Position numbers and translations under genes: made by a program. Below, piece by piece: positions 15,444-59,174 of a stretch of DNA of 64,000 nt. Source of the DNA: Sphingorhabdus profundilacus (GTDB lineage: Bacteria > Pseudomonadota > Alphaproteobacteria > Sphingomonadales > Sphingomonadaceae); the NCBI RefSeq assembly GCF_009769755.1, contig NZ_SDWJ01000001.1:1178001-1242000 (forward strand), in the 5' to 3' direction. Under the pieces are notes generated by a model, which was not told where the DNA came from, did not search any database, and worked only from the letters and a program-made list of their open reading frames with translations. Within the stretch, counting starts at the first letter, position 1; every line of letters starts with the position of its first letter.

Positions 15444-15479
15444 GTTGGTCGTGCGGAACAGAACCAAAGTCGAAGGACC

Positions 15480-39820: not shown

Positions 39821-39894
39821 TCCCCGGTCGTCTAACGGTAAGACTACGGACTCTGACTCCGTCTATTGAGGTTCGAATCCTTACCGGGGAACCA
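39821..39894 (+). tRNA. tRNA-Gln (anticodon CTG)
   Basis: A complete 74-base cloverleaf. The acceptor stem TCCCCGG (39821-39827) pairs with CCGGGGA (39884-39890), with discriminator A and an encoded CCA end (39892-39894). The anticodon stem ACGGA/TCCGT encloses loop CTCTGAC, giving anticodon CTG, which reads CAG. GGTTCGAATCC forms the T arm. Its 3' portion is repeated at 59041-59089, marking it as the probable integration site of the following island. Confidence 0.97.
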
Positions 39895-39895
39895 G
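39847..39895 (+). repeat. left attachment repeat (within tRNA-Gln)
   Basis: Bases 39847-39895 match 59041-59089 at 47 of 49 positions. The two differences are T/C at 39854/59048 (anticodon) and C/T at 39892/59086 (first C of CCA). A short further match, ACTGATTTAT, occurs about seven bases beyond both copies. Confidence 0.8.
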
Positions 39896-40181
39896 AATAA
39901 ATTACTGATTTATTTCAATTATTATTGTCAGAATAGCTGCCAAATCGCGGTGGCTGCTTTACGTGAAAGTATCACGCATTTCCGTGGGTTTCCCTCCTTT
40001 TACGCTGGGTTCCGGCAGCTCCATGCAACATGGGCCAATGCCCGTCGAGACTAAAACGACCACGCAAATGACTGGGTATTCCTGCCGACTACGGGCCGTG
40101 TTCGTCATCACACAAGTGTATTCGGTATCCATGCGTTGTTGAAATACCGTTTTGAAGATTCACATTAGAGTGGAGACAAAC

Positions 40182-40733
40182 GTGATACCCGCGGTCAAAG
40201 ATAACCCATTCCCTCATGCGGACACAGACGCCGCCCTTGCTCTACAGTTGGCGATAAACACAGCCAAAGTAAAAAACAAAACTAGCCTTCGAACAATCGC
40301 AAAGCAGTTAAACTATAAACAGGCTGCGGTATTGAGTCATATGGCAAATGGTCGAATACCAATCCCGGTTAAGCGTATAAAAGACATCGCGATTGTGCTG
40401 GATTTAAACCCTGAGGCGTTCTTTAAATTGGTGCTGAAGCAGCGGTGTCCTGAGATTTCGTCATCGGTTGAAGATGACGGGACCAATCATTATGCTTTAT
40501 TAAGCGATCTTCGCCATCCGGACATGCCTCTCGGCCTTGCCAATGCGACGCCATCCCAGATGCGTATTATTCGAGAAGTCCCCCATGATGATCATGCCGC
40601 TGAACGATGGCTATCACCGCACGAAATTCGATATGTAAATGAGATACGGAAGCTCAAACCGGAGGTCGTAACAGACCGATTGTCGCCCCGTGATTTGCAA
40701 CTGTTATCCCTTGCGTTGGGGCCGCTGCCTTAG
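40182..40733 (+). CDS. putative XRE-like helix-turn-helix protein
   Basis: A 183-residue protein. Residues ~35-75 look like a lambda-repressor-type HTH: LRTIAKQLNYKQAAVLSHMANGRIPIPVKRIKDIAIVLDLNPEAFFKLVL. The remainder is not recognised. It is the first gene after the left att repeat, where islands often keep a regulator of excision or immunity. The start is uncertain. A GTG at 40182 with GGAG eight bases upstream is preferred. A TTG at 40152 in the same frame is the alternative. Confidence 0.65.
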   Translation: MIPAVKDNPFPHADTDAALALQLAINTAKVKNKTSLRTIAKQLNYKQAAVLSHMANGRIPIPVKRIKDIAIVLDLNPEAFFKLVLKQRCPEISSSVEDDGTNHYALLSDLRHPDMPLGLANATPSQMRIIREVPHDDHAAERWLSPHEIRYVNEIRKLKPEVVTDRLSPRDLQLLSLALGPLP

Positions 40734-41053
40734 CAGGAGAAGTGGGGTACCTGACCCTTCCCATATTTGCAATGCTGGAGTCATCGACTCTAATTCTTAA
40801 ATTATATTATATTTTTCAATAATTTAAATCTTATATTTGGGAACGATGCGGGCGTGATTTTTCTTCAGGCAAGCACTGGGCTAGCACCTTAAGTGTTGTA
40901 CAGGCCGCAGTGATGCGGTCTATTGCAGGAGCTTAAGCCTTATAGCGTGCTGCGGAATGGCCTCTTTGCGTCCACCACCGGTCATTCAAAACATTTTCCG
41001 ATGACCCAATTCGGCCGGCCGTTAACCTCTGCATTCGATAGCCATTCGAATGA
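40734..41053. other. island intergenic region, low-GC in part, no gene seen
   Basis: About 320 bases after the HTH gene. The first 120 are AT-rich (for example 40790-40845). Short open frames exist but none has a ribosome site or recognisable product. It may include decayed sequence from the truncated reductase gene that follows. Confidence 0.45.
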
Positions 41054-41242
41054 AAGCCATGGTTTCCTGGTCAAAGAGCTTCGGTGCAATCCATTGACCT
41101 GCCAAATGCACCTCCACCTGAAGAGAAAGAACCAATATTCGGAAGCGGCGGTCCTATTTGTCTGCAATGTGGTTGTGTCGGCATGATCCGCGAGGAAGGG
41201 TGTAATAAATGCTTAAGCTGCGGCTATTCAAAATGCGGTTGA
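41054..41242 (+). pseudogene. nrdJ: C-terminal zinc-ribbon remnant of a B12-dependent (class II) ribonucleotide reductase
   Basis: The frame opened after a TGA at 41051 and closed by TGA at 41240-41242 encodes a tail reading PPPEEKEPIFGSGGP, then ICLQCGCVGMIREEGCNKC and LSCGYSKCG. The paired CxxC motifs and the ending CGYSKCG are those of the C-terminal metal-ribbon of adenosylcobalamin-dependent ribonucleotide reductases. No start codon or catalytic part is present within 60 codons, and upstream frames give no reductase sequence, so more than 90 percent of the gene is missing. A functional NrdJ would suit oxygen-free growth, the same setting as nitrate respiration. Confidence 0.65.
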
Positions 41243-41334
41243 ACAAGCCCAGCAGGTCAATGTACCTTATAGGAATCGACGGAAGATCAAGACACTGATG
41301 ATGATTTAAACGTCCGTCAAAATTCCAAAATCAA

Positions 41335-41871
41335 TCATGAACAAATGTCACGCAACCGCGGCAGAGCGCCGGCTATCGAGCAAGGTTTATGTCTGCTGTC
41401 GAGTTCAAGTTCCAACAGCCCATCCCATGCATCACGACAAGCTCCGGTCGATCCCGGCACGCAAAAAATGAAACTGTCGCCTGCCTGCCCAGCAAAAGCG
41501 CGTGATTGCATTGCGGCGACGCCAACAGTTCCTAGGCTCTTTTGCTGGAAGGCGATAGCAAAGCCGTCCATTTCGCGGCGCAGTAACGGCTTCACAGCCT
41601 CGGGCGTGTTATCGCGCGGAGAAAACCCTGTGCCTCCGGTTGTCAGAATGATCTCGATTTTCTCATCGGTTATCCACTGCCGTAAACTCTTTTGAATCGC
41701 CTCGATATCGTCGCGAACAATCGCTCGCTCGATCAATATATGTCCGGCGCTTGTCAGTCGCTCGACGAGCAACGCGCCGGACGTATCTGTCTCCTCGTCA
41801 CGCGTGTCCGAGATCGTCAGTACCGCAATACCGAGCGGGTAAAAAGTCAGATTTTCGTCAATTCCGGCCAT
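41335..41871 (-). CDS. moaB: molybdenum cofactor biosynthesis protein B
   Basis: MoaB/MogA-type protein (178 residues) that adenylylates molybdopterin before molybdenum insertion. Family motifs are present: VLTISDTRDEETDTSG at the start, the substrate loop LTTGGTGFSPRDNTPEAV, and FCVPGSTGACRDAW. It is the last gene of the nar operon, 2 bases after moaA, and supplies cofactor for the bis-MGD enzyme NarG encoded upstream. No other moa/moe genes are in the island, so the host must supply the rest. Confidence 0.95.
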   Translation of the reverse strand: MAGIDENLTFYPLGIAVLTISDTRDEETDTSGALLVERLTSAGHILIERAIVRDDIEAIQKSLRQWITDEKIEIILTTGGTGFSPRDNTPEAVKPLLRREMDGFAIAFQQKSLGTVGVAAMQSRAFAGQAGDSFIFCVPGSTGACRDAWDGLLELELDSRHKPCSIAGALPRLRDICS

Positions 41872-41873
41872 GA

Positions 41874-42887
41874 TTATCCCCCTATGGATGCAAGGTGCGG
41901 GGTGGCACCGCTATTGCCCTGATGCAGCAAATGCGCAGGTGCTTTTCCGGCTACCAGCTTTTGCAATCGGGCGATCAGTTCTTCCTTCTGCGCATCATCT
42001 TGCAACCACGGCTTCAAGTCGACGCCGCCATCGCCAAACAGGCAAAGGTGCAACTTACCCGTCGCGGACACTCTCAACCGATTACAACTGGCACAAAAGT
42101 CTTTGGAATAAGGGGCAATGATGCCTATCCGGCCGGGACCCGTTGGGTTTGCGTATTCAATCGCTGGCCCGGCACCGGCCTGTCGCGATTGACGCAGCCA
42201 GCCGGAAGATTTCAACCGGTCGCTGACAAAACTGCCGGGTAAGTGATGCTCGATAAAATATCCCGGATTATCGTTCGTCCGCATTACTTCAATGAATCGC
42301 AATGTAAGGTCGTGCTCCACCACAAACGCGATGAAATCGTCCAGTTCGTCATCGTTCAATCCTTTGAGCAGCACTGAATTCAGTTTGATTGATGCTATTC
42401 CAGCCGCTTTGCATGCATCGATTCCACTCAAAATTTCAGCGAGTCGGTCATGACCAGTGATGGCGTGAAATTTCTCAGGCTTCAGCGAATCCATGCTGAT
42501 ATTGATCGCGCTGATACCATGATCGGCATAATGCTGCGCACGCGCCTCAAGCCGGTAACCGTTGGTCGTGATTGCGATCTGCCGAATACCTTCGATGCCA
42601 GAGACGGCTTTAGCAATTTCAAGAAACTCCGTCCGCAGCGTCGGCTCGCCGCCCGTTAGACGAATTTTCCAAAGTCCAAGCGTGGCAAAACCGCCAACCA
42701 GCCTGCGGATTTCGTCGACTGAAAGATGGGTTGGTGCACCCTTTGTTTTACGATATCCATCAGGCAGACAATAGCTGCACCGGAAGTTGCAAACATCGGT
42801 GAGCGACAACCTCAGATATTCAAACCGGCGGCCGTGGAGGTCGGTCAGTTCGGGTCCAGCTGGGTTGGACGTTAAAACCATCGTCAC
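41874..42887 (-). CDS. moaA: GTP 3',8-cyclase MoaA
   Basis: Radical-SAM enzyme starting molybdopterin synthesis (with MoaC) from GTP. The 337-residue protein has the SAM cluster motif CNFRCSYC near residue 33 and RLTGGEPTLR. The second cluster is FCASCNRLRVSATGKLHLCLF (CxxCx13C). The C-terminus ends in the Gly-Gly pair required for activity (SIGG). The GTG at 42887 overlaps the isomerase stop as GTGA; an ATG two codons later is possible. The position inside the nar operon follows the pattern known from Pseudomonas and Paracoccus-type nar clusters. Confidence 0.95.
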   Translation of the reverse strand: MTMVLTSNPAGPELTDLHGRRFEYLRLSLTDVCNFRCSYCLPDGYRKTKGAPTHLSVDEIRRLVGGFATLGLWKIRLTGGEPTLRTEFLEIAKAVSGIEGIRQIAITTNGYRLEARAQHYADHGISAINISMDSLKPEKFHAITGHDRLAEILSGIDACKAAGIASIKLNSVLLKGLNDDELDDFIAFVVEHDLTLRFIEVMRTNDNPGYFIEHHLPGSFVSDRLKSSGWLRQSRQAGAGPAIEYANPTGPGRIGIIAPYSKDFCASCNRLRVSATGKLHLCLFGDGGVDLKPWLQDDAQKEELIARLQKLVAGKAPAHLLHQGNSGATPHLASIGG

Positions 42888-43696
42888 TGGACCAGTGGCC
42901 CGTCCGCACCGCTGATTTCAACGCCTTCTATTTTGGCCGCCGATGCCAATATCGACAGATATTGGGAAACAGCGCGTCGGAAGCTCGCTTCCTCCAGATA
43001 TTGGGCAATCTTTTCGTGCACGAGATCGAACGGCAATTGCTGCCCCTCAACCCGCCGCCCGGCGCGGATCACATGGACACCGAAACGCGTCTTAACCGGT
43101 TCGGGGTGCAACGCACCTGCTGGTAACTTCAACAGCACGTCCTCGAATTCCTTAACAGTCTGGCCGGGACCAATTTGTCCAAGATTGCCGCCCTGCTCCT
43201 TTGAAGGACATGCCGAATGCTTTTGCGCCAGCACCGCAAAACTCTCTGGTGCGGCTTGCAACGCGCGGATGGTTGTCCGGGCATCACCAGTCGCAAGACC
43301 GTAAGCAAGGGCATCATCGGGCGATGCAGCAAACAGTATATGTTCTGCCTCAACCAAAGTTGGCGAGGTAAACCGATCCAAATGCTGATCATAGAACCGG
43401 CGTGTCACCGCTTCGTCGGCCGCCGGACATTGCACCTCCTGTTCAAGCAATGCCTCAATCCTCGCATCTTCTTCGGCAAGCGTTCGTCCCTCGGCATCGG
43501 TCAGCTCGTCGCTGACAATGTCGAGCCGGTCGGCCTCGTCAAGAAGGAGCTGCCGCAAAACGAGTGCCCGCGCAGCAGCTGCCCACGCTTCGACTGCATC
43601 GGTGGCAGGGTGGTTTTGCACCTCGGCAGCAATCATCGCTGCGCTGATTTCCCTGCCGTTTACGATTACGGGCGAGTGATCAAGAACGTCAACCAT
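42884..43696 (-). CDS. parvulin-type peptidyl-prolyl isomerase of the nar operon
   Basis: A 270-residue PpiC/NifM-like protein. The parvulin domain is in the C-terminal half: EAEHILFAASPDDALA, ACPSKEQGGNLGQIGPGQTVKEFEDVL, and TRFGVHVIRAGRR. The N-terminal half is helical. There is no signal peptide, so it probably acts in the cytoplasm. Equivalent isomerase genes accompany narGHJI in several proteobacteria, where they are thought to help mature the NarGH complex. Its start overlaps narI by 8 bases. Confidence 0.88.
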   Translation of the reverse strand: MVDVLDHSPVIVNGREISAAMIAAEVQNHPATDAVEAWAAAARALVLRQLLLDEADRLDIVSDELTDAEGRTLAEEDARIEALLEQEVQCPAADEAVTRRFYDQHLDRFTSPTLVEAEHILFAASPDDALAYGLATGDARTTIRALQAAPESFAVLAQKHSACPSKEQGGNLGQIGPGQTVKEFEDVLLKLPAGALHPEPVKTRFGVHVIRAGRRVEGQQLPFDLVHEKIAQYLEEASFRRAVSQYLSILASAAKIEGVEISGADGPLVQ

Positions 43697-44453
43697 GACC
43701 CGCTCCCAGCTTACGCGAACGCACGATCTGATATCCAGGCCGCCAGACGTAGCGGATGGGCACCGACAGCATGTGAACAAGACGAGTGAATGGGAAAATT
43801 AAGAATATCAGCATCCCAAGCACAAGATGGACCTGATATGGCCAATCTAGCCCTGCAACATAGTTTGCTATGCCCGGCTGAAACGTGAAGATGCCCTGCG
43901 CCCAAGCGGAAAGTCTTAGCATGACTTCTGCGTCGCCATGCGCCAGCGAAAATGGGACAGTGGCCAAACCAAGCATCAACTGCACAAACAATATGATCAG
44001 GACCGCATTATCGTTGATGGTAGATGTCTGCCTGATCCGCGCATCGAAGAAACGGCGATGCATTAGCAATATCAACCCTGTGAGGCATACTGCGCCTGCA
44101 AGTGAGCCAGCAATTATGGCCACCAGCTGTTTGTTCTCAGCTGAAATGACATGCTGATATATGCTGTGCGGTGTCAGCAAGCCGACAAAGTGACCCATCA
44201 ATAGGAACAAAACGCCGCCGTGGAATAGCACCGAGCCCCACATGAGCTGCCTGCGGCGGAGCAATTGGCTTGATCCAGTACGCCATGTATATGGCTCTCG
44301 ATCATAACGAATGATCGACCCGACGACCATTACTGCAAGTGCGATATATGGAAGAATGCCAAACAAAAAGGTGTTTATCCAAAGCTCGATTGGGATTGAC
44401 CCGAGGGCTTCATGCCCGGCCGGGGAGGCATTAGGGGTTACGGACATAATCAT
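43689..44453 (-). CDS. narI: respiratory nitrate reductase gamma subunit (cytochrome b)
   Basis: Membrane subunit (254 residues, five helices) that oxidises quinol and passes electrons through two haems b to NarH. Haem-ligand histidines are visible in SVLFHGGVLFLLMGHFVG and WPYQVHLVLGMLIF...RLVHMLSVP. The ATG at 44453 forms an ATGA overlap with the narJ stop; an ATG two codons later is the alternative. The order narG-H-J-I is canonical. Confidence 0.96.
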   Translation of the reverse strand: MIMSVTPNASPAGHEALGSIPIELWINTFLFGILPYIALAVMVVGSIIRYDREPYTWRTGSSQLLRRRQLMWGSVLFHGGVLFLLMGHFVGLLTPHSIYQHVISAENKQLVAIIAGSLAGAVCLTGLILLMHRRFFDARIRQTSTINDNAVLIILFVQLMLGLATVPFSLAHGDAEVMLRLSAWAQGIFTFQPGIANYVAGLDWPYQVHLVLGMLIFLIFPFTRLVHMLSVPIRYVWRPGYQIVRSRKLGAGHG

Positions 44454-45142
44454 GCTCCTTGTTCCAGCTGCATTGCCAAAATTTGCCGATTTGAAATCGG
44501 ACAGGCGGGTTCTGCTAAGGGGGCGGCAGGTGCCATTGCGCCAAAAGTTATTTCCTCTTCCTCCCATGCTGCATCCAACGCTTCTAAATCATTTGGGTCA
44601 TCGACAGGTGTCAAGGCTTCTGCCGGAACACTCTGGTCGCCGGACAGGTCACGCAATACCCCAAGCAGACCGGCATAGTCGGTCCCACGCGACTCCAACC
44701 GTTCCGCCAAAGTCGCAATAATCGTTCCCGCCTCCGCAAGCTCTGTCAAAGCCGTGCTGCGTGGCAGTGTCGAACAATATTCGAGAAACAATGGCAAATA
44801 GTCGGGCAGTTCATTTGTTGCCGGATCAAGCCCGGCTTCTATGTAACGCTCTCGAAGGTCAACCATCGCTTGGCCGCGGTCACGGCTTTCGCCGTGGACA
44901 TATTCAAACAGATGCAGGCTGTGTGTTCGGCCCCGATCGAAAAGCTCGACGTAATGCTCTTGAAGCGCGATTAGGTCACCGCCCGAGAGTCTGAACAATA
45001 GCGGATCCAAACGAAGCATCTGCTTTTCGCTGACGATACGTTCTACCAGCAAGGTCGCCCGAATGTCGGGAACCGCAGCGCGCAGATTTTCATCAGGATA
45101 GTGCAACAGCGCAGACAGCGCGCGCAAGGTTATCATGCTCAT
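44450..45142 (-). CDS. narJ: nitrate reductase molybdenum cofactor assembly chaperone
   Basis: A 230-residue all-helical redox-enzyme maturation protein of the NarJ/TorD family. It binds the NarG N-terminus and guides cofactor insertion. The signatures LSALLHYPDENL, LQEHYVELFDRGRTHSLHLFEYVHGESRDRG and LPDYLPLFLEYCS are standard. The Glu-rich C-terminal end is variable in the family. It overlaps narH by one base and narI by four. Confidence 0.96.
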   Translation of the reverse strand: MSMITLRALSALLHYPDENLRAAVPDIRATLLVERIVSEKQMLRLDPLLFRLSGGDLIALQEHYVELFDRGRTHSLHLFEYVHGESRDRGQAMVDLRERYIEAGLDPATNELPDYLPLFLEYCSTLPRSTALTELAEAGTIIATLAERLESRGTDYAGLLGVLRDLSGDQSVPAEALTPVDDPNDLEALDAAWEEEEITFGAMAPAAPLAEPACPISNRQILAMQLEQGA

Positions 45143-46680
45143 CAGAACATCTCCCCAGTTATATGTGACGTTGGAGTTTGCAGTTTCTTGCGGGTAGGGC
45201 CACCAAATATGTTGGTTTTCGTTTCGCCGCTCGAACAGCCATTGCCGAAGGAAAAGCCGCAGTCACCGCGCTCTTCGAACATATCTTCGGCATCTTCGCG
45301 GTGGCCCGTTGGGATGACGAAGCGGTCCTCGTAATTAGCAATTGCCATGACGTGATACATGTTTTCGATCTGCGAACCGGTAAGGCCGACGGCAGTGGCG
45401 ATGCTCTCATCAATCACGCCCTCGACAGTTTTGGATCGCATATAACCGCGCATGGCGAGCATGCGTTCAAGGCAAAGCGCAATTGGCTCCTCATCACCTG
45501 CCGTCAGCAGGTTCGCAAGATATTTGAGCGGAATGCGCAATGACCGAACATCGGGCATATTGTTGTTGACCGAAATTTGCCCGGCATTGGCGGCCGAACT
45601 TATCGGCGACAATGGCGGCACGTACCAGACCATTGGCAAGGTCCGATATTCGGGATGGAGCGGGAACGCAATTTTCCATTCCATCGCCATTTTCCATATC
45701 GGCGAGCGGCGCGCAGACTCCAGCCAATTTTCGGGAACACCATCTTTGCGTGCTTGTTCGATGACTGCCGGATCATTGGGGTCAAGGAAGATGTCGAGCT
45801 GTGCCTGATACAAATCCTCAACATTTTCCGCCGAAGCGGCCTCTTCGATCCGGTCGGCATCATAGAGCATGACTCCCAAATAACGGATGCGCCCGACACA
45901 GGTTTCCGAACAGACGGTCGGTTGCCCTGCCTCTATGCGCGGATAGCAGAAGATGCACTTTTCCGACTTGCCCGATTTCCAGTTATAATAGATTTTCTTG
46001 TAGGGGCAGCCCGACACGCACATCCGCCAGCCACGGCATTTTTCCTGATCGATCAAGACAATGCCGTCTTCCTCGCGCTTGTAGATCGACCCCGAAGGAC
46101 AAGCTGCGACGCAGGTGGGGTTGAGGCAATGTTCGCACAGCCTTGGCAGATACATCATGAAGGTGTTTTCGAACTGACCGTATATCTCCTTCTGTACGCC
46201 TTCGAAATTATAGTCTTTAGACCGTTTGGAAAACTCTCCGCCCAGGATTTCTTCCCAGTTGGGGCCCCAGTTGATTTTCTCCATCCGTTTGCCCGTAATT
46301 AGCGAGCGTGGACGTGCCGTCGGAAAAGCCTTGCTCTCCTTCGCTTCTTGAAGGTGGGAATAATCGAAGGTGAAGGGTTCGTAATAATCGTCGATTTCTG
46401 GCAGGTCGGGATTAGCGAAAATCTTTGACAACAGTCGCCATTTACCACCCATTCTGGGCTTTAATCGTCCACCTTTGACATCCCAGCCGCCATTCCAGCG
46501 CTTCTGGTTCTCCCAATCCTTGGGATAGCCGATGCCCGGTTTGGTTTCGACATTATTGAACCACGCATATTCCATGCCTTCGCGGCTGGTCCATACATTC
46601 TTGCAAGTGACCGAGCAGGTGTGGCAGCCGATACATTTATCAAGGTTCAAGACCTTGCCGATTTGCGCGCGGACTTTCAT
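45142..46680 (-). CDS. narH: respiratory nitrate reductase beta subunit (iron-sulfur protein)
   Basis: A 512-residue electron-transfer subunit with four Fe-S clusters. Cys motifs in order: CIGCHTCSVTCKNVW near residue 16, CEHCLNPTCVAACPSG, CRGWRMCVSGCPYKK (Trp in place of one Cys gives the 3Fe-4S cluster), and KCIFCYPRIEAGQPTVCSETCVGR. The narG stop overlaps its ATG (ATGA). It works on the cytoplasmic face with NarG. Confidence 0.97.
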   Translation of the reverse strand: MKVRAQIGKVLNLDKCIGCHTCSVTCKNVWTSREGMEYAWFNNVETKPGIGYPKDWENQKRWNGGWDVKGGRLKPRMGGKWRLLSKIFANPDLPEIDDYYEPFTFDYSHLQEAKESKAFPTARPRSLITGKRMEKINWGPNWEEILGGEFSKRSKDYNFEGVQKEIYGQFENTFMMYLPRLCEHCLNPTCVAACPSGSIYKREEDGIVLIDQEKCRGWRMCVSGCPYKKIYYNWKSGKSEKCIFCYPRIEAGQPTVCSETCVGRIRYLGVMLYDADRIEEAASAENVEDLYQAQLDIFLDPNDPAVIEQARKDGVPENWLESARRSPIWKMAMEWKIAFPLHPEYRTLPMVWYVPPLSPISSAANAGQISVNNNMPDVRSLRIPLKYLANLLTAGDEEPIALCLERMLAMRGYMRSKTVEGVIDESIATAVGLTGSQIENMYHVMAIANYEDRFVIPTGHREDAEDMFEERGDCGFSFGNGCSSGETKTNIFGGPTRKKLQTPTSHITGEMF

Positions 46681-49600
46681 TGGGTTGCCTCCAGTGCGGT
46701 CATCGGCCCTTCGAGCCAGTCGACCTTTTCAAGCTTGCGGACGATGACATATTCGTCGCGGTTGGAACCGACTGTTCCGTAGTAATTGAAGCCGTAGCTC
46801 TGCTGGACGTAACCACCGATCATGTGCGTGGGTTTCAGTACCGCGCGTGTGACGCTGTTATGAATGCCGCCACGCTGGCCTGTGAGCGGGGACCCTGGGA
46901 CGTTCACGATCTTTTCCTGTGCGTGATACATGAAGAGCGTGCCGTCTTTCATGCGTTGCGAAACGACGACACGAGCGACTAATGCGCCGTTCGAATTGAA
47001 CGCCTCCACCCAGTCATTGTCGACCAGCCCTGCCTTGGCTGCGTCGGTCTCTGACATCCAAACAATCGGGCCACCGCGTGACAGCGTTAGCATCAGTTGA
47101 TTGTCGGTGTATGTGGAATGGATGCCCCATTTCTGGTGCGGCGTGATGAAGTTCAGGATCACATGCGGCGCGTCTTTCGCCCGGTCGAGCATCGGCTTTA
47201 CGGCCTTTGTGTCGATCGGTGGGCGGTAGACGCAGAAACCCTCGCCAAAGGCGCGCATCCATTTATGATCCTGATAGAGCTGTTGCCGTCCCGTCAGTGT
47301 CCGCCAAGGGATCAACTCGTGGACATTGGTGTGCCCCGCATTATAGCAAACATGCTCACTTTCGATGCCGGACCATGTGGGTGACGATATGATCTTGCGC
47401 GGTTGTGCCTGTACGTCACGGAAGCGAATTTTTTCTTCCTCCTTAGGACGGGCAAGATGCGTGTGGTCGCGGCCGGTATTCTTGGACAAGGCAGCCCATG
47501 CCTTTACCGCGACCTCACCATTGGTTTCAGGCGCCAAGCTCAGGATAACCTCACAGGCATCGATGGCGGTCTCGATTTTTGCCATGCCTTTTGAGGTTCC
47601 TTCTTCGCGCACCTCTCCGTTTAAACGGCGAAGCAGTTCGACCTCGGGTTCGGTATTCCAAGCGATACCTTTACCGCCATTGCCGATCATTTCCATGAGC
47701 GGACCAAGAGCGGTAAAACGTTTGTATACATTGGGGTAATCGCGGGTAACGACCGCAATATTCGCCATCGTCTTGCCTGGTAATGGCAACACTTCGCCCT
47801 TGCCCCAGTCGGCGACATCAAATGGCTGCGCGATTTCACCCGGCGTATCATGCAGGATTGGCGTCAGCACTACGTCCTCTTCGACACCCAGGACTTCCGG
47901 GGCGACCTCGGAGAATTTCTTCGCAATTTCTCTATAGATATCCCAATCGGACTTGGACTCCCAAACCGGATCAATCGCAGCCGATAGTGGGTGGATGAAC
48001 GGGTGCATATCCGATGTGTTCAAGTCATCCTTTTCGTACCAGCTTGCAGTCGGTAGAACGATGTCGGAATAGACACATGTTGTCGACATGCGGAAATCGA
48101 GAGTGACCAGCAGGTCGAGTTTGCCTTGCGGTGCATCTTCATGCCAGACGACTTCAACTGGCTTCTGCGCGCCGGTTTCACCAAGATCCTTGCCCTGAAC
48201 GCCATGCTGCGTACCCAGCAAATGTTTGAGGAAATATTCGTGGCCTTTACCCGAAGATCCGAGCAAATTTGAACGCCAGACAAACATGTTACGCGGCCAG
48301 TTCGCTGGGTCGTCGGGGTCATTGCATGACATTTCAAGGTCGCCCGATTGGAGCGCCGAAACGACATAATCCTTGGGCTCCATCCCAACGGCTTTCGCCG
48401 CCTTGGTAATATCCAGCGGGTTAGACTTCAGCTGAGGCGAGCTGGGTAACCAGCCCATGCGTTCGGCGCGGACATTGTAATCAATGAGCGAACCCGACCA
48501 ATCTCCGTCAGGCGCCGTCGGCGACAGGATTTCATCAACATCTAGCGTTTCGTACCGCCACTGGTCGCTATGCGCGTAGAAGAAACTGGTCGAGTTCATC
48601 TGACGCGGCGGGCGAACCCAGTCGAGTCCAAAGGCGAGCGGTGCCCAGCCGGTTTGCGGACGCAGCTTTTCCTGCCCTACATAATGTGACCAGCCACCGC
48701 CCGACTGGCCGACACACCCGCACATCACCAACATGTTGATAATGCCGCGGTAGTTCATGTCCATATGGTACCAATGGTTTAATCCAGCCCCCAAAATGAC
48801 CATCGACTTGCCTTTGGTTTTTTCAGCGTTGGTTGCAAATTCACGGGCAACGGTGATGATTTGTTCAGCGGGAACACCAGTAATTTTCTCCGCCCAAGCA
48901 GGTGTATAAGGCTCATTATCCGCATAGTTTTTGCTGACATGATCGCCGCCCAATCCGCGATCCAGACCGTAATTGGCGCAAAACAGATCAAACACCGTGG
49001 CTACAAACGCTTTGCCTTCCTTGGTATCAATCTGACGCACCGGCACACGGCGCTTCAAAACATCAGGATGGTCGGTTCCTTTGAAATGGTCATGTTCACG
49101 ATTGCCAAAATAGGGGAAGGCAACATCAACCACATCGTCGCGGTCTGCGTCCAGAATGGCGGTCATTCGCAGCTTTACATCTGCGCCTTGTCCGTCCTTC
49201 TCCTCGAGGTTCCACTTGCCTTCCTGACCCCAGCGAAAACCAGCTGAACCCAAAGGTGCCACGAGCTTCCCATTGGCATCATCAAAAGCGACGGTTTTCC
49301 ATTCGGGATTATTACGCTCGCCCAGATCGCCCTTTACGTCAGACGCGCGCAATAGTCGTTCGGGGATATAGGCCCCATCCTTTTCAACCAGCCGGACGAG
49401 CATCGGGAAATCGCTATAACGGCGGCAATAATTCTCAAAATATTCCACCTGCCGGTCAAGGTGATATTCACGAAGGATGACATGGCCAATCGCCATTGCG
49501 AGCGCGGCGTCAGTCCCTTGTTTGGGGTTGAGCCAAATATCCGCAAACTTCGTCGCCTCCGCATAATCAGGCGAAACGACCGCAACCTTTGCTCCGCGAT

Positions 49601-50414: not shown

Positions 50415-50427
50415 GGTCTTAACCCTT

Positions 50428-53142: not shown

Positions 53143-53206
53143 GACCTGCCCCTTGTGCGGAGAGAATAATCTGGTTCTTCGATGACGGTTCTAGCTGTGC
53201 CGTTTG

Positions 53207-53220
53207 TTGACATGGATCAA
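53207..53220 (-). promoter_or_regulatory. FNR/DNR-type box upstream of narK
   Basis: TTGACATGGATCAA differs from TTGATNNNNATCAA at one base. Its centre is 71 bases from the narK ATG, which places a class II start site about 30 bases before the gene. Confidence 0.8.
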
Positions 53221-53299
53221 TATGATTGGCGGAAAATGTTCAAACTCGGTTTGGGATAACGAGCGTCATGGCTCGCCGCATTATGCATCATTTGAATGA

Positions 53300-53313
53300 T
53301 TGATATTTATCAA
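53300..53313 (+). promoter_or_regulatory. perfect FNR/DNR-type box upstream of the Crp/Fnr gene
   Basis: TTGATATTTATCAA is an exact match to the palindrome. Its centre is about 50 bases before the regulator ATG (53357), so autoregulation is likely. If used as a class II activating site the leader would be very short and cut into the ribosome site, so repression or control of the divergent narK is also possible. Confidence 0.8.
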
Positions 53314-53356
53314 TTGGCCGCTAATACTTCCGGCTATCCAAGCGGAGGAACAATGC

Positions 53357-54058
53357 ATGCGCGCTGCAGAAAAGCCGGAAATTGCCGCATTGCCCTTTTT
53401 CGCCTCGATGGCTCCCGATGAGCGCGAGCGAATATTTTCCGCGTCATTCCTTCAGGTGTTTCCACCATCGCTGAAATTGTTCGATGCAGGGCAAAAGCCA
53501 GACTTCCTGCACATACTTATCGACGGCATGGTCGAGTTGTTCACCGGTAACGGGGACCGCACGACGACGATGGCCATCATACGTCCCGTGCGCAGCTTCA
53601 TTCTGGCAGCATCCTATACCGATCAGCCATATTTGATGTCGGCACGAACACTGACCGCTTCGCGCATCTTGATGATCCCTTCACCGCTTGTTCGCGAAAC
53701 CATCGACAATGACCGTGCCTTGATGCGCGGAGCAATGCAGGAACTGGCATTCGGTTTTCGCTATTTTGTGCGTGCACTCACCGACATGAAGCTAAGGCAG
53801 TCGGTCGAACGGTTGGGGAATTATCTATTGGTCGAAAGCGATGAGCGCGGCGGCGCGTTCCAGTTTGAAATTCCGATAGAAAAACGGACACTGGCATCGT
53901 TGCTGGGAATGACACCTGAAAATCTCTCCCGCGCTTTCGGCGCTCTGGCCGCGCACGGTGCCCTTGTTGAAGGATCGACGGTTCAGATTGTGGACCGGGA
54001 TAGGCTGGTCGCGTTTGTTCGGCCCGACCCCAATCCCGTCAGAGACGAAATCTGGTAA
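53357..54058 (+). CDS. Crp/Fnr family transcription regulator without cysteines
   Basis: A 233-residue regulator with an N-terminal cyclic-nucleotide-binding-like barrel (PDFLHILIDGMVELFTGNGDRTTTMAI) and a C-terminal winged HTH (RTLASLLGMTPENLSRAFGALAAHG) whose recognition helix fits TTGAT half-sites. There is no cysteine in the protein, so it cannot carry an FNR 4Fe-4S cluster. A haem-dependent NO sensor of the DNR/NNR kind is the likely alternative. GGAGGA about 8 bases upstream fixes ATG 53357. A longer frame from 53300 would overlap the FNR box and is rejected. It is divergent from narK and should control the nar and NO-response genes. Confidence 0.9.
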   Translation: MRAAEKPEIAALPFFASMAPDERERIFSASFLQVFPPSLKLFDAGQKPDFLHILIDGMVELFTGNGDRTTTMAIIRPVRSFILAASYTDQPYLMSARTLTASRILMIPSPLVRETIDNDRALMRGAMQELAFGFRYFVRALTDMKLRQSVERLGNYLLVESDERGGAFQFEIPIEKRTLASLLGMTPENLSRAFGALAAHGALVEGSTVQIVDRDRLVAFVRPDPNPVRDEIW

Positions 54059-54099
54059 CGAAGTTGAGTTCCAGAAGTTCGTGAAGGAGGGGCTTTCAA

Positions 54100-55320
54100 T
54101 CAAAACTTGGCATCAAGCGCAAACCAGAGTTTAGTCGTGTCAGTGGCAAAACGATCTGCATTAAAGTGCGCGAATTTCAGCGTGGCGGCGAGCCATTTAT
54201 TTATTGGTGCGACCACCAACCCGCCCCATTCAAGACCATAAGCAATGTCACCCCGCGTTGAGTGGTAATCGTGATATTGCAGCCGCAGAGTCGTCCCCTT
54301 AACACCGGCAATAAGGGGAAGCTTCACAGACATATCCGCATAGCCGTCGCGCAGGCCATCGGCTGGAGTCGACAGAAATTTGTCGGCCCAACCGTTAAAC
54401 GCATGCAGTGTCGCCAGTGGCGTTTGTAACGCAGTAACCCCATCGCCCTCCAATCGCTCCAGCCCTAATTTCATGGTTACAGCGCCGACGGTGATCCCAG
54501 GTTCGATAAGCAGATAGTCATGCGAAAAACTGCGCGGATTTGGGCTTAGGTCACGCTGATTGGCATACTCTAAATAGTATAGCAGTTTTGCTTTGCTTGA
54601 TAATTTCTGATCACCCGAAATGCGGATTCCGACAGTCTTTGAAGACAAAGCAACTGCATCAGGCAATTCGAGGAAATAGCCGTATGCAGTCAATGTGCCA
54701 ACCGGCTTAACCTCAAAGCTCGCACGAAGCAGATGAATGTCGCTGTCGCGCCAGATGCCCTGCATGGAGTTCGGACCGAATATCCGGTTGACCCGCCAAG
54801 CATAGCTGTATTCAGCCGTTACACCCGCAATTGGCTTAACCGCCACCCGGGCTGCATCTAAGGTTTGGTCATTCTGGCGCCAGCCAACCGAACCCACCCA
54901 GCGCTGATTGTCATAATTCAATGTTTGCCGACCCACAATGGCCTCGACTTCCTTGGAGGGCTTGAAACGCACCCAGGCTTGATTGAGCAATATATCAGAC
55001 GGATCGGCAACTACGGGATAGTCGGTCCTGCCATTCACGGTATCGTTATAATGCCTCCGGCCCAGGCGTGCGATCGCCTCACCTTCGATGAGCGCACTCA
55101 ACCCATGCCACTCGGTCGTTTTAAGTCCGGCTCTAAATCGGGCCGTCGATGCCGTCGCATTTTCCGGCACACCTTCTTGGTCGACGAGTTCAAGCCGGTA
55201 CCGGATTTCGGCATAGGGTTTCACAGTGATCGGTTCGCCAGCAGATTGCGCCAGCACGGGCGTTGGGGCAGATAGCTCGACGAGCGCGCACGAGATTGAT
55301 ACGAGAAGAAGCTTGTTCAT
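54100..55320 (-). CDS. alginate-export-type outer-membrane porin
   Basis: A 406-residue beta-barrel protein with signal peptide (MNKLLLVSISCALVELSAPTPVLAQ). The mature part resembles the AlgE/alginate-export domain: AEIRYRLELVDQ, AWVRFKPSKEVEAIVGRQTLNYDNQRWVGSVGWRQNDQTLDAAR. The C-terminal strand is FALDAKF with terminal Phe. In this setting it may be a channel for nitrate/nitrite or another anion rather than for alginate, but that is inference. The ATG at 55320 starts the signal peptide. A promoter with an FNR-type box lies just upstream. Confidence 0.82.
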   Translation of the reverse strand: MNKLLLVSISCALVELSAPTPVLAQSAGEPITVKPYAEIRYRLELVDQEGVPENATASTARFRAGLKTTEWHGLSALIEGEAIARLGRRHYNDTVNGRTDYPVVADPSDILLNQAWVRFKPSKEVEAIVGRQTLNYDNQRWVGSVGWRQNDQTLDAARVAVKPIAGVTAEYSYAWRVNRIFGPNSMQGIWRDSDIHLLRASFEVKPVGTLTAYGYFLELPDAVALSSKTVGIRISGDQKLSSKAKLLYYLEYANQRDLSPNPRSFSHDYLLIEPGITVGAVTMKLGLERLEGDGVTALQTPLATLHAFNGWADKFLSTPADGLRDGYADMSVKLPLIAGVKGTTLRLQYHDYHSTRGDIAYGLEWGGLVVAPINKWLAATLKFAHFNADRFATDTTKLWFALDAKF

Positions 55321-55354
55321 GCCCGCTGAATAGCGCAAACCGTAGCAACGATAT

Positions 55355-55368
55355 TTGATTTTAGTCAA
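55355..55368 (+). promoter_or_regulatory. FNR/DNR-type box, divergent porin/CopD-like promoter (first)
   Basis: TTGATTTTAGTCAA has one mismatch in the second half-site. Its centre is about 50 bases before the ATG of the CopD-like gene at 55411, fitting a class II site for the rightward operon. Confidence 0.75.
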
Positions 55369-55373
55369 TGAAC

Positions 55374-55387
55374 TTGATGATCATCAA
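55374..55387 (-). promoter_or_regulatory. FNR/DNR-type box, divergent porin/CopD-like promoter (second)
   Basis: TTGATGATCATCAA is an exact match to the palindrome. Its centre is about 60 bases upstream of the porin ATG (55320), fitting a class II site for the leftward gene. Together with the box at 55355 it gives each divergent promoter one site. Confidence 0.8.
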
Positions 55388-55410
55388 TCGTAATAAGGCC
55401 GAGGTGGAAA

Positions 55411-55875
55411 ATGGATGATTTGGCAATCGCTCGCGTGGTTCATGTCGTCGCTGTCCTGATGTGGATTGGCGGGGTAGCATTTGTGACGACTGTAGCGATG
55501 CCGGCAATCCGCCGACAATATGGCGCACCAGCTCGCCTGTCCGCCTTTCATGATCTCGAAAGTGGCTTTTCATGGCAGGCAAAGATTTGGGTGTTGCTTG
55601 CGGGTGCCAGCGGTTTCTGGATGACGTGGCGGGCCGACATGTGGAGCCGCTTCAAAGAGGCGCAATATTGGTGGATGTGGGCGATGCTGCTGATCTGGAC
55701 TATATTTTCAGTCATGCTCTTCGTTCTTGAGCCGCTATTCCTTCACAGGCGTATGGCAACATCGCCAAGTCCTGAGAAAGATTTCAGGCGCATGGAGATT
55801 GTACACCGCGTTTTGCTGGCCGCATCAATTGTTGCAACCATAGGTGCTGTCGGCGGCGTTCACGGGCTATGGTGA
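55411..55875 (+). CDS. CopD-like four-helix membrane protein
   Basis: A 154-residue protein with four predicted helices. The first helix carries VHVVAVLMWIGGVAF, the H-x6-W-x-GG pattern shared by CopD-like and related haem- or metal-binding membrane domains. Other His residues occur near the middle and the C-terminus (HRVLLAASI, GGVHGLW). It starts with a good GAGGTGGA site and overlaps nnrS by 7 bases, so the two are translated together. The tight coupling suggests a partner role in NO handling. No specific function is known to me. Confidence 0.75.
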   Translation: MDDLAIARVVHVVAVLMWIGGVAFVTTVAMPAIRRQYGAPARLSAFHDLESGFSWQAKIWVLLAGASGFWMTWRADMWSRFKEAQYWWMWAMLLIWTIFSVMLFVLEPLFLHRRMATSPSPEKDFRRMEIVHRVLLAASIVATIGAVGGVHGLW

Positions 55876-57068
55876 AATCGGCGATCCTGTTTGCCGCGCC
55901 GCATCGTTTGCTGTTTCTGACAGGCATCGTGCAACTGGCCGCGACGATGCTGTGGTGGACGGTCGCGCTTGCGGGCATCCACTTCGGCACGGTGGCACTA
56001 CCTACCGAGGACATTCCCGCGTCGCTGCTCCATGCTCCGATATTGATCTACCTCGTTTTGCCGCCTTTATTTTTCGGTTTCTTGCTAACAGTCTTTCCGC
56101 GGTGGATGGGATATCCTGACCTTGAGCGGCGTGCTTACGCTCCTGTGGCCATTGGCTATGCGTTATCGGCTGTGTTGTGCTGGGCCGGACTATTTGTGGG
56201 TAGAGATATATTGTTGACCGGAGCCTTCGGCACCGCATTTCTCGCCAGCCTTTGGGGTGCGTTTTTATTGGCTTCGATTGCGAACCGCGAGGTTCGCGAT
56301 AGCAAAAGCCCTACATGGCATGGATGGTCGATCCTCGCTGCTTTTGCTTGTGGCATCGTGGGGCAAATCGCCTTGCTAGCATTCATGGCTGATCTGGCGA
56401 CTGACACCCTGCCTTTTGCCAATAGGATCGGGCTGTGGGCGTTTGTACTTCCAGTCTTTTTCACCGTCTGTCACCGGATGGTTCCATTTTTCGCCGGTAA
56501 TGTTGTCGAAGGATATGTCCGGTGGCGGCCGTTCTGGCTTCTCACTGCATTTTGGGTTGGAACAGTGTTACTGATTGCCGCAGAGGTAACGGGCCGGATG
56601 ATGTTGCTAAGCCTCGGCAGCGCTTTTATAACCACGGTCACGGCGATGATGGTCTTAAAATGGTGGCCGCGTGCTAAGGCGCCAGCATTGCTGTGGGTTT
56701 TAATCATTGGCTTTGCTTGGGCACCTATAGGCTATGCATTAGCTTTTTTGGGTTCGATCGGAATCGAATTAGGTCGTGCGCCGGAGCATGCGCTGACGAT
56801 CGGATTTGCAAGCAGCATCCTCGTGGCCATGGTCACCCGAGTTACCCATGGCCATTCAGGCCGACCGTTATCCTTCCCCGCAGTCGCATGGATTGCTTTT
56901 GTCGGCATGCAGACCGCCGCGCTGGCCCGCATCGCCGCCGCCGTGCGTTATGACAATCCAGCGTGGCTGCTTGCTTCTGCGATAATTTTTGTCGCCTGTT
57001 TTGCGCCATGGATGCTGCGCAATGGTGCCATATACTTACAGGCGCGAATTGATGGCAAAGCAGGATAG
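55869..57068 (+). CDS. nnrS: NnrS family protein
   Basis: A 399-residue polytopic (about 12 helices) haem-copper membrane protein of the NnrS family, which protects against nitrosative stress in denitrifiers. Features include the N-terminal APHRLLFLTGIVQLAATMLWW, PPLFFGFLLTVFPRWMGYPDL, CHRMVPFFAGN, and VTRVTHGHSGRPLSFP with clustered His. Placement under an FNR/DNR box beside other NO-response genes agrees. Confidence 0.92.
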   Translation: MVKSAILFAAPHRLLFLTGIVQLAATMLWWTVALAGIHFGTVALPTEDIPASLLHAPILIYLVLPPLFFGFLLTVFPRWMGYPDLERRAYAPVAIGYALSAVLCWAGLFVGRDILLTGAFGTAFLASLWGAFLLASIANREVRDSKSPTWHGWSILAAFACGIVGQIALLAFMADLATDTLPFANRIGLWAFVLPVFFTVCHRMVPFFAGNVVEGYVRWRPFWLLTAFWVGTVLLIAAEVTGRMMLLSLGSAFITTVTAMMVLKWWPRAKAPALLWVLIIGFAWAPIGYALAFLGSIGIELGRAPEHALTIGFASSILVAMVTRVTHGHSGRPLSFPAVAWIAFVGMQTAALARIAAAVRYDNPAWLLASAIIFVACFAPWMLRNGAIYLQARIDGKAG

Positions 57069-57078
57069 GACGCGAATT

Positions 57079-57513
57079 TTACGGCGTTACACTCACCCAG
57101 ATTAGCGCAATCACAACGCCAAAAAATGCGACCATAATTGGCACAATTAGAATTTGTGCAAAGGCCGCCGCTTTGCCAAGTTGACCCGTGAAGGTATCGA
57201 TATCGCCATACACAGTTGCCGGTCTGCCCGGGGCGCCGACTGTGTTCATGGCTGCGGCAGTCCCGAAATACATCAGCGTATAGCACGCGCTGATCGCGAT
57301 CATGAACAGCGCGCTTTTGTCATGACCCGTTACCATGATGAGTGCGCCAAAGAATATGGCATAGGCAAGAAACATTGTCGCCCAGACTGATTTTGGCAGA
57401 GCGAATGTCCTGAGTTCCTGGGTGGGCTTGATCGGCATAACCAGATCAACATCGTGCTGCTGATATTCGACTGACCGAGTTTCGGCGGCTATCAGATTAA
57501 AATCCATCAACAT
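57079..57513 (-). CDS. small three-helix membrane protein next to truncated haemoglobin
   Basis: A 144-residue protein of unknown function. After ~45 polar residues come three predicted helices: SVWATMFLAYAIFFGALIMVTG, SALFMIAISACYTLMYFGTA, and a C-terminal ILIVPIMVAFFGVVIALIWVSV. GGAG precedes ATG 57513. The start lies inside the end of the haemoglobin gene (17-base overlap), so the two are coupled. A membrane partner for the globin is a plausible guess only. Confidence 0.72.
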   Translation of the reverse strand: MLMDFNLIAAETRSVEYQQHDVDLVMPIKPTQELRTFALPKSVWATMFLAYAIFFGALIMVTGHDKSALFMIAISACYTLMYFGTAAAMNTVGAPGRPATVYGDIDTFTGQLGKAAAFAQILIVPIMVAFFGVVIALIWVSVTP

Positions 57514-57964
57514 CGATTTTCTCCTTTGTGAGAGAGGCGAGACCGCCATGGTGCAAGGCGATCCCCGTTTGCAGGCTGGCCGCGATCCGATGTGCGCGGT
57601 CGCGGAAGAGGTCTTGGGCATCAGGATGAGCGACCACTTCAGTCACCGTCTCATCCCAAAGGCGAAGCCACATCACGAAATGTTCAGGCACAATACCGGA
57701 TATCGCGACATGCTTGAGCATCGGATTGCCGCGAAACCGGCCGGATTCCATTGAGATTGACGCCCAAAAATCCTTCATTCTTGCCAGATGGGGCTCCCAG
57801 TTCACGATCTTACCTGCAAACATCGGTCCGAGCACGACATGTCCCCGGATGTGCGCGTAAAATGTTTCGACTAGCCGAGAGATCAGAGCATCATTTATCC
57901 CGATTGCATCGGCTTCAGCAGCCTTTCGAAGCCTGGCTTGTTCTACATAAGAATGCGCGCTCAT
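57497..57964 (-). CDS. group III truncated haemoglobin
   Basis: A 155-residue globin of the TrHbIII (GlbC) type: LVETFYAHIRGHVVLGPMFAG in helix B/CD, Tyr36 at the B10 position, DFWASISMESGRFRGNP, and the proximal His85 in PMLKHVAISG, then PEHFVMWLRLWDET. Related proteins bind O2/NO and can act as NO dioxygenases or reductases. It is divergent from the nsrR-like gene across 81 bases carrying palindromic candidate operators. Confidence 0.9.
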   Translation of the reverse strand: MSAHSYVEQARLRKAAEADAIGINDALISRLVETFYAHIRGHVVLGPMFAGKIVNWEPHLARMKDFWASISMESGRFRGNPMLKHVAISGIVPEHFVMWLRLWDETVTEVVAHPDAQDLFRDRAHRIAASLQTGIALHHGGLASLTKEKIDVDGF

Positions 57965-57976
57965 CAGTTCGACTCT

Positions 57977-58040
57977 ATATCATATATTTGATATGCCTTT
58001 TATAAACTGATTGCCCCGATAAGCAATATATAATATGCAT
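57977..58040. promoter_or_regulatory. candidate NsrR/Rrf2 operator region
   Basis: The divergent spacer contains the perfect palindrome ATATCA-TATATT-TGATAT (57977-57994) and a second element AATATGCAT (58032-58040) close to the nsrR-like start. ATGCAT-containing elements are typical of NsrR half-sites. Assignment rests on position and resemblance only. Confidence 0.45.
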
Positions 58041-58045
58041 GTTTT

Positions 58046-58483
58046 ATGAGATTGACTGTCCAAACCGATTTCGCGCTCCGCACATTGATGTTTCTTGCCG
58101 CAAGCGAAGGACATCAAACCATTGAAATAATTGCAACCCATTATGGCATTTCCAAAAACCACTTGATGAAAGTGGCGCAGCGGCTTGTCGCCGAAGGATA
58201 TGTCGAAAGCGTTCGTGGGCGTGGCGGCGGATTAGCACTTGCCCGCGCACCTGGAGCGCTGAACGTTGGTGAGATCATCCGTAAGTTTGAAGATGTCGGG
58301 ACGTTCGTAGAGTGTTTTGACCCGGTAACAAACCAGTGCACAGCCACCCCCGCCTGCGGCCTGAAGCATATTCTGGCAGGCGGAGTAACAGCCTTCATGA
58401 CCCACTTAGACAGGTTTAGCGTTGCTGACCTGATCAAGAACCGGACTGATTTTAGATTAGCGCTGAATCTTGTTGGGGCGTAG
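58046..58483 (+). CDS. nsrR: NsrR-like Rrf2 family NO-sensing repressor
   Basis: A 145-residue Rrf2 protein. The N-terminal winged HTH begins MRLTVQTDFALRTLMFLA and contains ISKNHLMKVAQRL and GYVESVRGRGGGLALA. The Fe-S ligands are Cys90, Cys98 and Cys104 in ECFDPVTNQCTATPACGLK, the layout of NsrR (first spacing two or three residues longer than in E. coli NsrR). In the family NO destroys the cluster and relieves repression. Likely targets here are the divergent globin operon and its own gene. Confidence 0.9.
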   Translation: MRLTVQTDFALRTLMFLAASEGHQTIEIIATHYGISKNHLMKVAQRLVAEGYVESVRGRGGGLALARAPGALNVGEIIRKFEDVGTFVECFDPVTNQCTATPACGLKHILAGGVTAFMTHLDRFSVADLIKNRTDFRLALNLVGA

Positions 58484-59040
58484 GCAGAACATGCGAACGC
58501 CATATTTATAGAAAGCTGAATGAAGGGCAGTTCTGGTCGTTCCGGCGAACTTTTTGAATGTCCGCAGTGTTAGCGGGAGCATCCAGTCGTTTTGGGATGC
58601 CTCAACGGCAGCAACTGATCGATACCTACAAAGAACCGGACAGTCGGCTCCCTGCCCAATTCCAGTCGTCAAAGTTTAAAAACGCCGGTGGATGGGTCGG
58701 CGATATTTTGGACCGCCAAGTCGGCACGATCAGGGTGGCTATATTACTTTCATTTCTGGGACTTCTCAATTGCAATCCGCTCATCATGTGCGGAGTCTTG
58801 GGTCATAGGGCATCCAGTCGATGCACTTATGTCAGCATTGTCGTGTATCAATATGGTATACCCTCCCTGAGCAGCTTCACGAGACACCCAAACTGACTCA
58901 ATAGACTTAACTACGCAATTTTGGGCCAGCATAGCTCAATGGTCTAAACTCATTTGAGACATGGGATGGTATGCTGGTAGGTTATCGGCGGTGTTTGGGG
59001 GAAAAGCGATTGCGCCAATAAGATTCCCTAGGGTCAAAAT
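58484..59040. other. right end of the island, no gene supported
   Basis: About 560 bases between nsrR and the right att repeat. Short frames on both strands (up to ~110 codons) lack ribosome sites and recognisable products. Sequence composition is similar to coding DNA, so this could be eroded coding sequence, possibly of the missing recombinase, but nothing identifies it. Confidence 0.4.
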
Positions 59041-59089
59041 CGGACTCCGACTCCGTCTATTGAGGTTCGAATCCTTACCGGGGAATCAG
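59041..59089 (+). repeat. right attachment repeat (partial tRNA-Gln copy)
   Basis: Direct repeat of 39847-39895 with two mismatches, covering the anticodon arm, T arm and 3' acceptor strand. The D arm and most of the 5' half are missing, the anticodon would be CCG and the end reads TCA, so it is not a working tRNA. GATTCCC just upstream can pair with GGGAATC by chance. The bases from 59090 to cheR at 59174 hold nothing recognisable. Confidence 0.8.
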
Positions 59090-59174
59090 TTTAAACCACT
59101 GATTTATAACAATAATCATTGCCCCGACGGCTATATAAACTGGCGGAGCAATTGCCAGATCATAGCCTTACCGT

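Follow-up and report, generated by a model that had tools for sequence, protein, structure and literature searches.

A nitrate-respiration gene block at tRNA-Gln(CTG) of Sphingorhabdus profundilacus, probably a decayed and laterally acquired genomic island

Three described systems come closest to the locus reported here, a block of nitrate-respiration (nar) genes lying beside tRNA-Gln(CTG) in a 64,000-nucleotide stretch of the Sphingorhabdus profundilacus genome (the window). In the cited passages of PMC4891358, the asn-tDNA islands of Klebsiella pneumoniae are inserted at the 3′ end of the tRNA gene (tDNA) and flanked by direct repeats with a 17-bp core, reaching up to 148 bp in some groups; different islands occupy this one site, and composite islands arise by tandem accretion. 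The nar operon of Sphingopyxis granuli TFA is accompanied by nifM, moa genes and a divergent FtrB-like regulator, and the cited parts of the reports on this strain state that its nar genes were exclusive to it in a comparison of its genus and that anaerobic growth on nitrate was shown (PMC4741004, PMC6472365). The nitrate respiration conjugative element (NCE) of Thermus thermophilus, as described in the cited sections, carries nitrate respiration together with its own regulators in mobile regions (PMC5748679, PMC6282519). Sphingomonads are usually described as aerobes (cited section of PMC6472365).

The S. profundilacus block resembles the Klebsiella islands in its apparent insertion at a tDNA 3′ end, in the flanking repeats of the tRNA 3′ part (49 bases here), in the variety of islands at one site and in the probable tandem accretion; it differs from them, as portrayed in the same passages (PMC4891358), in its lack of an integrase, its host-like composition and its rearranged right flank. 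It shares with TFA a sphingomonad nar operon with nifM-type and moa genes and a divergent regulator, but also includes nnrS and Rrf2 genes and lies between tRNA-Gln repeats, whereas the cited TFA passages place nar at no tRNA. As in the NCE passages, nitrate respiration with its own regulators would lie in mobile DNA; unlike the NCE, the window island has no transfer genes that we could see, TraU was not found in its genome, and the closer analogue is an arrangement present in two other genomes of the genus (G031 and G032, see below). A literature search by title and start of abstract found no nar island at tRNA-Gln in sphingomonads; one may still exist. The anatomy of the island fits that of familiar tRNA-associated islands, of which this case is a new example. 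We read the block as a decayed tRNA-Gln-associated genomic island, that is, a laterally acquired nitrate-respiration cassette brought in by the insertion of an integrative element and followed by later rearrangement, with a probability of about 0.7. Such an island provides a concrete route by which sphingomonads could gain nitrate respiration in one step.

The window corresponds to C1:1178001-1242000 (contig:positions) of a 2.9 Mb genome in three contigs, designated G000 in the comparisons. The sole tRNA called in it is tRNA-Gln(CTG) (Table 1). A gapless alignment of positions 39847-39894, its 3′ part, with 59041-59088 gave 46 identical bases of 48 at an offset of 19,194, and the next base (G) agrees too, so that the 49-base direct repeat with two mismatches (47/49 identical), 19.2 kb apart, that had been predicted from the letters of the window is confirmed. 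The right copy lacks the first 26 tRNA bases. A search of the whole genome with the tRNA (E ≤ 0.001) returned these two places only, with no third, and the partial copy had E = 4.1e-16; the match is far above chance. The block is thereby bordered by the 3′ part of an intact tRNA gene at one end and by a direct repeat of that 3′ end at the other. The nar and nitric oxide-response genes (narG over its family cut-off) lie between the repeat copies, as originally predicted, with rlmE and ppx-type genes outside the block on the left and cheR, cheB, cheY, cheW and cheA on the right.

The distribution of narG was analyzed in 61 genomes using the NCBIfam cut-off. It exceeded the cut-off in 16 of them, including five of the 37 genomes of the genus (own genome included), and fragments in G012 raise the latter count to six. 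The narG of G025 holds one TAG stop, and that of G032 is split over two contigs. NarG proteins of G031, G025 and G032 are 96.4 to 97.6% identical to one another, and that of G000 is 92.5 to 93.1% identical to these three. As a host marker we used a gene of 238 aa without a Pfam family, to which we assigned the name xpaC (tree of 237 columns). Between G031 and G025, identity is 96.4% for NarG, 72.9% for Ppx and 76.5% for xpaC. By xpaC, G025, G032 and G002 form one clade (94/91), while a NarG tree in which these three were held together was rejected (p value of the approximately unbiased test, p-AU, 2.9e-66); G002 lies next to G025 by xpaC (97.9%), yet carries a different NarG, grouping with sphingomonad metagenome-assembled genomes from named records. 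The gene set is therefore patchy and phylogenetically discordant, the discordance being that of the nar lineage in the genus (for G000 and G031 alone, p-AU was 0.144).

The G031 cassette, at a distance of 1.4 Mb from tRNA-Gln, is embedded in F-type conjugation genes (C1:1932000-1971999). It is flanked to one side by TraU, TraN, TraH, TraG and, below cut-off, a TraW-like protein, and to the other by an integrase-domain open reading frame (ORF), a relaxase of the TrwC/TraI type and TraD. This arrangement is likely a conjugative nitrate-respiration element. In G032, TraU and moaB share a contig and are about 8 kb apart, and the ORFs between them (not scanned singly) look G031-like. TraU is present in eight of the 37 genomes; by eye, no Tra gene adjoins the cassette in G025 and G002. 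Two types of setting for the same cassette are thus seen in a single genus. Lateral movement of the nar lineage is well supported, and the predicted lateral acquisition of the block gains support from the patchiness, the tree conflict and the conjugation context in G031. Regarding its source, NarG matched 173 plasmid records, none of them in the band above 80% identity, and no plasmid donor was found. A scan of named genomes gave 593 confirmed places, of which the best 80 were kept, the best among them at 86%; six of these 80 were gene-mapped, and one (L165) has the full order from nnrS to moaB and five (L166-L170) have parts of it in the same order. A separate observation by eye is that the cassette of G025 (contig C73) is followed by a gene resembling vitamin-B12-type ribonucleotide reductase, which would fit anaerobic life.

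The tRNA-Gln site was compared across the genus. A match to the tRNA was found in 32 of the 37 genomes, identical over 74/74 bases in 30, and ppx adjoins it in 28 of 30 loci (own included); the sequences diverge directly after CCA. xpaC follows after 17-21 bp in G001, G029 and G032, after about 25 bp in G012 (from coordinates), and after 754 bp to 94 kb in 16 further genomes. The intervals behind the tRNA were compared in 29 genomes, own included, in ten of which the stretch read contained no xpaC; G012 and G036 were left out because they gave no exact match to the tRNA core string. To look for integrase ORFs, a local model seeded from four integrases was run over the first 40 kb of every interval. 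In G025 (C74), an insert of ~13 kb at tRNA-Gln carries a P4-type integrase of 415 aa (domains Arm-DNA-bind_3, Phage_int_M and Phage_integrase), with a 17-bp tRNA-end copy about 90 bp away. In G030 (C55), a 754-bp insert between tRNA-Gln and xpaC holds a 149-aa ORF, helix-turn-helix (HTH)-like by eye, and a 13-bp tRNA-end copy near xpaC; it is perhaps the relic of an element. Judged from these sequences, the 3′ end of tRNA-Gln is a used integration site in the genus. Part of the variation behind it is gene content common to sub-clades and not fresh insertion: G031 and G021 have a long collinear stretch in common after tRNA-Gln. Ahead of that stretch, however, G021 has 16.4 kb of extra DNA in place of the 27 bp of G031, which again speaks for use of the site.

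Two findings would have spoken against integration here, namely both tRNA copies in strains without nar, or nar conserved at this locus. At E ≤ 0.001, no second copy of the 3′ half was found in nar-less genomes of the genus; the second tRNA match in G018 is whole-length (81%), and the short repeats in nar-less G030 (13 bp) and in G025 (17 bp) bound other inserts. Likewise, nar was not seen at tRNA-Gln in the five other narG-bearing genomes of the genus; this is settled on one contig for G031 only, nar and tRNA-Gln lying on different contigs in the other four.

The left end of the element is shared, including the HTH-like gene and over its whole length, with G009, a genome that has no narG over cut-off. 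A relative of this gene occurs in two of the 37 genomes (own and G009), in both just after tRNA-Gln, and the G009 gene contains one stop codon. The sequence 3′ of the right repeat copy also resembles that following tRNA-Gln in G009 (score 51.5, reached by 0 of 2000 shuffle pairs; 88.6% over 79 bases including the core) and that following the left copy (score 43, equalled in 1 of 2000 shuffle pairs). When the right flank was compared with the flanks of 25 relatives, G009 alone stood out (0/300), the next best being G026 (11/300). High scores were also obtained for the left flank against G016, G017, G034 and G024 (0 to 4 of 300), and the AT-rich arms may have features in common without being closely related, possibly as a general property here. 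The single clean insertion originally proposed is too simple, as element-like sequence follows the right repeat; the likeliest explanation is that the nar element integrated to the left of an older sibling, whose first bases would survive at 59090-59120 (stacked insertions). By eye, positions 58925-59000, directly before the right repeat, resemble a decayed tRNA that was not called by ARAGORN.

The similarity to G009 bears on a rather unlikely alternative, in which the nar cassette entered an older, decayed tRNA-Gln element secondarily, by homologous or insertion sequence (IS)-type recombination, and the repeats mark that older element. The left end is 77% identical to that of nar-less (by the cut-off) G009, about as much as the ppx-side DNA (78%), and the DNA that the window has in common with the G031 nar locus (41339-56911, moaB to nnrS, in three pieces) starts and stops inside the island, short of its ends. 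Against this, the repeat pair appears young relative to the species splits, because only 2 of 48 sites set the right repeat apart from the invariant tRNA; with a pooled divergence at four-fold sites of 0.396 even from G031, the pair looks younger than the split from G009. Moreover, no transposase was found among the island ORFs by eye or Pfam scan, although no dedicated IS search was made.

On the right side, cheR is not the ancestral neighbour of tRNA-Gln, because ampD adjoins it directly in all five relatives checked (G031, G021, G018, G009 and G024). The commonest right neighbour of tRNA-Gln in the genus is another gene; cheR was found in 20 of the 37 genomes, and where it shares a contig with tRNA-Gln the two are 610 kb (G031), 625 kb (G021) and 169 kb (G008) apart. 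In the window, similarity of cheR to its relatives is lost at the stop codon. The ampD gene of S. profundilacus lies at C1:591253, on the opposite strand relative to cheR, and its upstream spacer still resembles the cheR-ampD spacer of the relatives; its distance from tRNA-Gln is about 626 kb, compared to 609 kb in G031. The right flank was altered by rearrangement, most simply by an inversion of ~646 kb that would run from 591.2 to 1237.1 kb and end on one side at the stop codon of cheR; the inversion as such is an inference. More than one rearrangement occurred, because in S. profundilacus the S41 gene found next to tRNA-Gln in G031 is at C1:1352.7 kb and xpaC at C1:462.6 kb, and the simple inversion model is incomplete. 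The remainder of the older element was also sought across the rearrangement, and this candidate was rejected: the DNA left of ampD has no match to the post-tRNA ORFs of G009 (E ≤ 1e-3) and no tblastx match to other tRNA-Gln intervals (E ≤ 1e-8). By eye, this DNA contains a HicA/HicB-like pair (C1, about 590.6-591.0 kb) and polysaccharide-type genes.

The following observations weigh against an integrative island. A PF00589 search of the genome found no integrase gene in the block: all matches are outside it (C1:1547790, C1:1570420, C2:481522, C2:351786 and C2:958443), as is a weak one below cut-off (C1:745907), and the best integrase tblastn match within the block (E=0.002) sits in narH and was judged to be chance. 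Part of the variability after tRNA-Gln may not be integrase-made, with a tRNA-end repeat of at least 13 bp in three of the 29 intervals (own included), a detectable integrase in one, and a length of 21 bp or less in three. The empty site predicted to join the two outer flanks (ppx - tRNA-Gln - cheR) was seen in no relative in which it could be judged, and insert-free tRNA-Gln sites join other genes; this outer-flank comparison fails where one side of an island has been rearranged. Composition gave no contrast, contrary to what the original prediction would lead one to expect. Coding GC of the island is 0.541 (GC3 0.599), between the left (0.576) and right (0.526) flanks, and its codon-bias distance from the left flank is 0.251 (6 genes) compared to 0.242 (sd 0.062, 20 genes) for the left genes themselves; atypical GC or codon usage is a common, though not essential, mark of islands. 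Foreign composition was therefore rejected as evidence for the island. Finally, the NarG tree does not reject a clade of G000 and G031, and the branch that places G000 outside G031, G025 and G032 has support of 99/97 without the partial G032 row and 80/97 with it (92/88 in the narH tree). At four-fold sites (genes below 55% identity or 60% coverage dropped), divergence between G000 and G031 is 0.549 for nar, higher than the pooled 0.396 of 24 left-flank genes, which singly range from 0.236 to 0.626. Between G025 and G002, nar (0.499) is like the flank genes (0.481; 183 sites). A clear contrast is seen for G031-G025 alone (0.397 for nar, 0.557 for flank genes), and no four-fold value points to very recent transfer. 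The corresponding values are 0.675 for the che genes of G000 and G031, and 0.522 for nar of G031 and G032.

Because its composition is host-like, the block likely came from a donor among the sphingomonads. The same composition, the rearranged state of the locus, the p-AU value for G000 with G031 and four-fold values without a sign of recent transfer into G000 would also suit a history in which nar was ancestral to the G000/G031 lineage, was kept in few genomes and was moved to tRNA-Gln by a rearrangement that duplicated the tRNA end. We consider this very improbable: G021, G018, G009 and G024 have no narG over cut-off, nar of G031 lies among conjugation genes, the nar type of G031 recurs in G025 and G032 in conflict with the host marker, two relatives carry shorter repeats of the same tRNA end, and integrases typically leave a repeat that ends where the tRNA ends at its 3′ side (PMC4891358, in the passages cited). 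The stronger claim, that nar of G000 and G031 has been proved to lack a single host ancestor, was rejected on the p-AU value and the four-fold divergence.

Under the preferred reading of a decayed island, the nar cassette (moaB-moaA-ppiC-narIJHG-narK-dnr-porin-nnrS with the globin-like and Rrf2 genes) would have arrived with an integrative element, through recombination at the tRNA-Gln(CTG) 3′ half. A new tRNA 3′ end would have come with the element, leaving the tRNA intact, and the displaced 3′ end would have become the right repeat. The element would thereby have landed to the left of an older related one (tandem accretion), and, in the order that we infer, the later inversion of about 646 kb, ending at the cheR stop codon, would have set the che operon beside the right repeat. 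The original idea of integration at tRNA-Gln is in the main supported by insertion at this 3′ end elsewhere in the genus, while the missing integrase, the right flank and the supposed simplicity of the event speak against it as first stated. The block lacks the integrase gene of an active integrative element with a tyrosine integrase, and it lacks the type IV secretion and relaxase genes of an integrative and conjugative element; none of the latter was seen among the scanned island ORFs (by eye and Pfam), no genome-wide relaxase search having been made. The island is probably immobile, and because no integrase is left in it, the block is fixed unless the integrase of another element acts on the repeats. 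More tentatively, a near-constant cassette (moaB to nnrS) might pass between vehicles in one genus, as cargo amid F-type conjugation genes in G031 and G032 and as that of a tRNA-Gln integrative element here, where it would have been trapped beside the chemotaxis operon by stacked attachment (att) sites and the later inversion; att recombination may have joined in that inversion.

Table 1. Features of the tRNA-Gln(CTG) locus and the nar block (window positions)
Feature	Position	Strand	Remark
Intact tRNA-Gln(CTG)	39821..39894	+	ARAGORN; 3′ 48 bases = left attachment-site copy
Left copy of 49-base direct repeat (attL core)	39847..39895	+	
Element left end, AT-rich arm and HTH gene	39895..40700	+	aligns at 77% to G009 post-tRNA-Gln sequence
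Weakly HTH-like regulator, 193 aa	40152..40733	+	HTH_3 E=0.035, below Pfam cut-off
moaB	41335..41871	-	Pfam MoCF_biosynth
moaA	41874..42887	-	homologue in same order in G031, G032, G025, G002
PpiC/NifM-type peptidyl-prolyl isomerase	42884..43780	-	Pfam Rotamase
narI	43689..44567	-	synteny with relatives
narJ	44450..45142	-	synteny with relatives
narH	45142..46680	-	synteny with relatives
narG	46677..50414	-	TIGR01580 over cut-off
narK, 904 aa	50428..53142	-	two halves matching each other at about 25%
Crp/Fnr-family regulator (Dnr-like)	53300..54058	+	Pfam
Alginate_exp outer-membrane porin-like protein	54100..55368	-	Pfam
154-aa ORF	55411..55875	+	no family (Pfam scan)
nnrS	55869..57068	+	Pfam NnrS E=3.3e-56
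180-aa ORF	57079..57621	-	no family (Pfam scan)
Globin-like protein	57497..57964	-	Bac_globin E=0.0081, below cut-off
Rrf2-family regulator (NsrR-like)	58046..58483	+	Pfam Rrf2
Island right end	58484..59040	none	one 112-aa ORF (58558-58896), no family
Right copy of direct repeat, truncated tRNA-Gln 3′ part	59041..59089	+	2 mismatches
Sequence after right copy	59090..59120	+	resembles element left ends of G009 and of left copy
Rearrangement junction at cheR 3′ end	59175..59215	none	ampD follows here in 5/5 relatives

An integrase remnant considered in the right end of the island was rejected (local integrase model E ≥ 0.93 over the frames of 57965-59100; tblastn E ≥ 1). Nitrate respiration in S. 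profundilacus may stop at nitrite, because its genome gave no match to the copper nitrite reductase NirK (TIGR02376), other nitrite reductases not having been searched. The names moaA, narI, narJ, narH and narK are those we presume from sequence and synteny, not from family scans, and the two-halved narK is what we take to be a NarK1-NarK2 type fusion. The true start of narI is probably further in than annotated, because its relatives match from residue 56 on. Elsewhere in the window, two stretches within 15478-15623 (38 and 31 bases, 97 and 100%) have a second occurrence on the other strand, near C1:1260.6 kb of the same genome.

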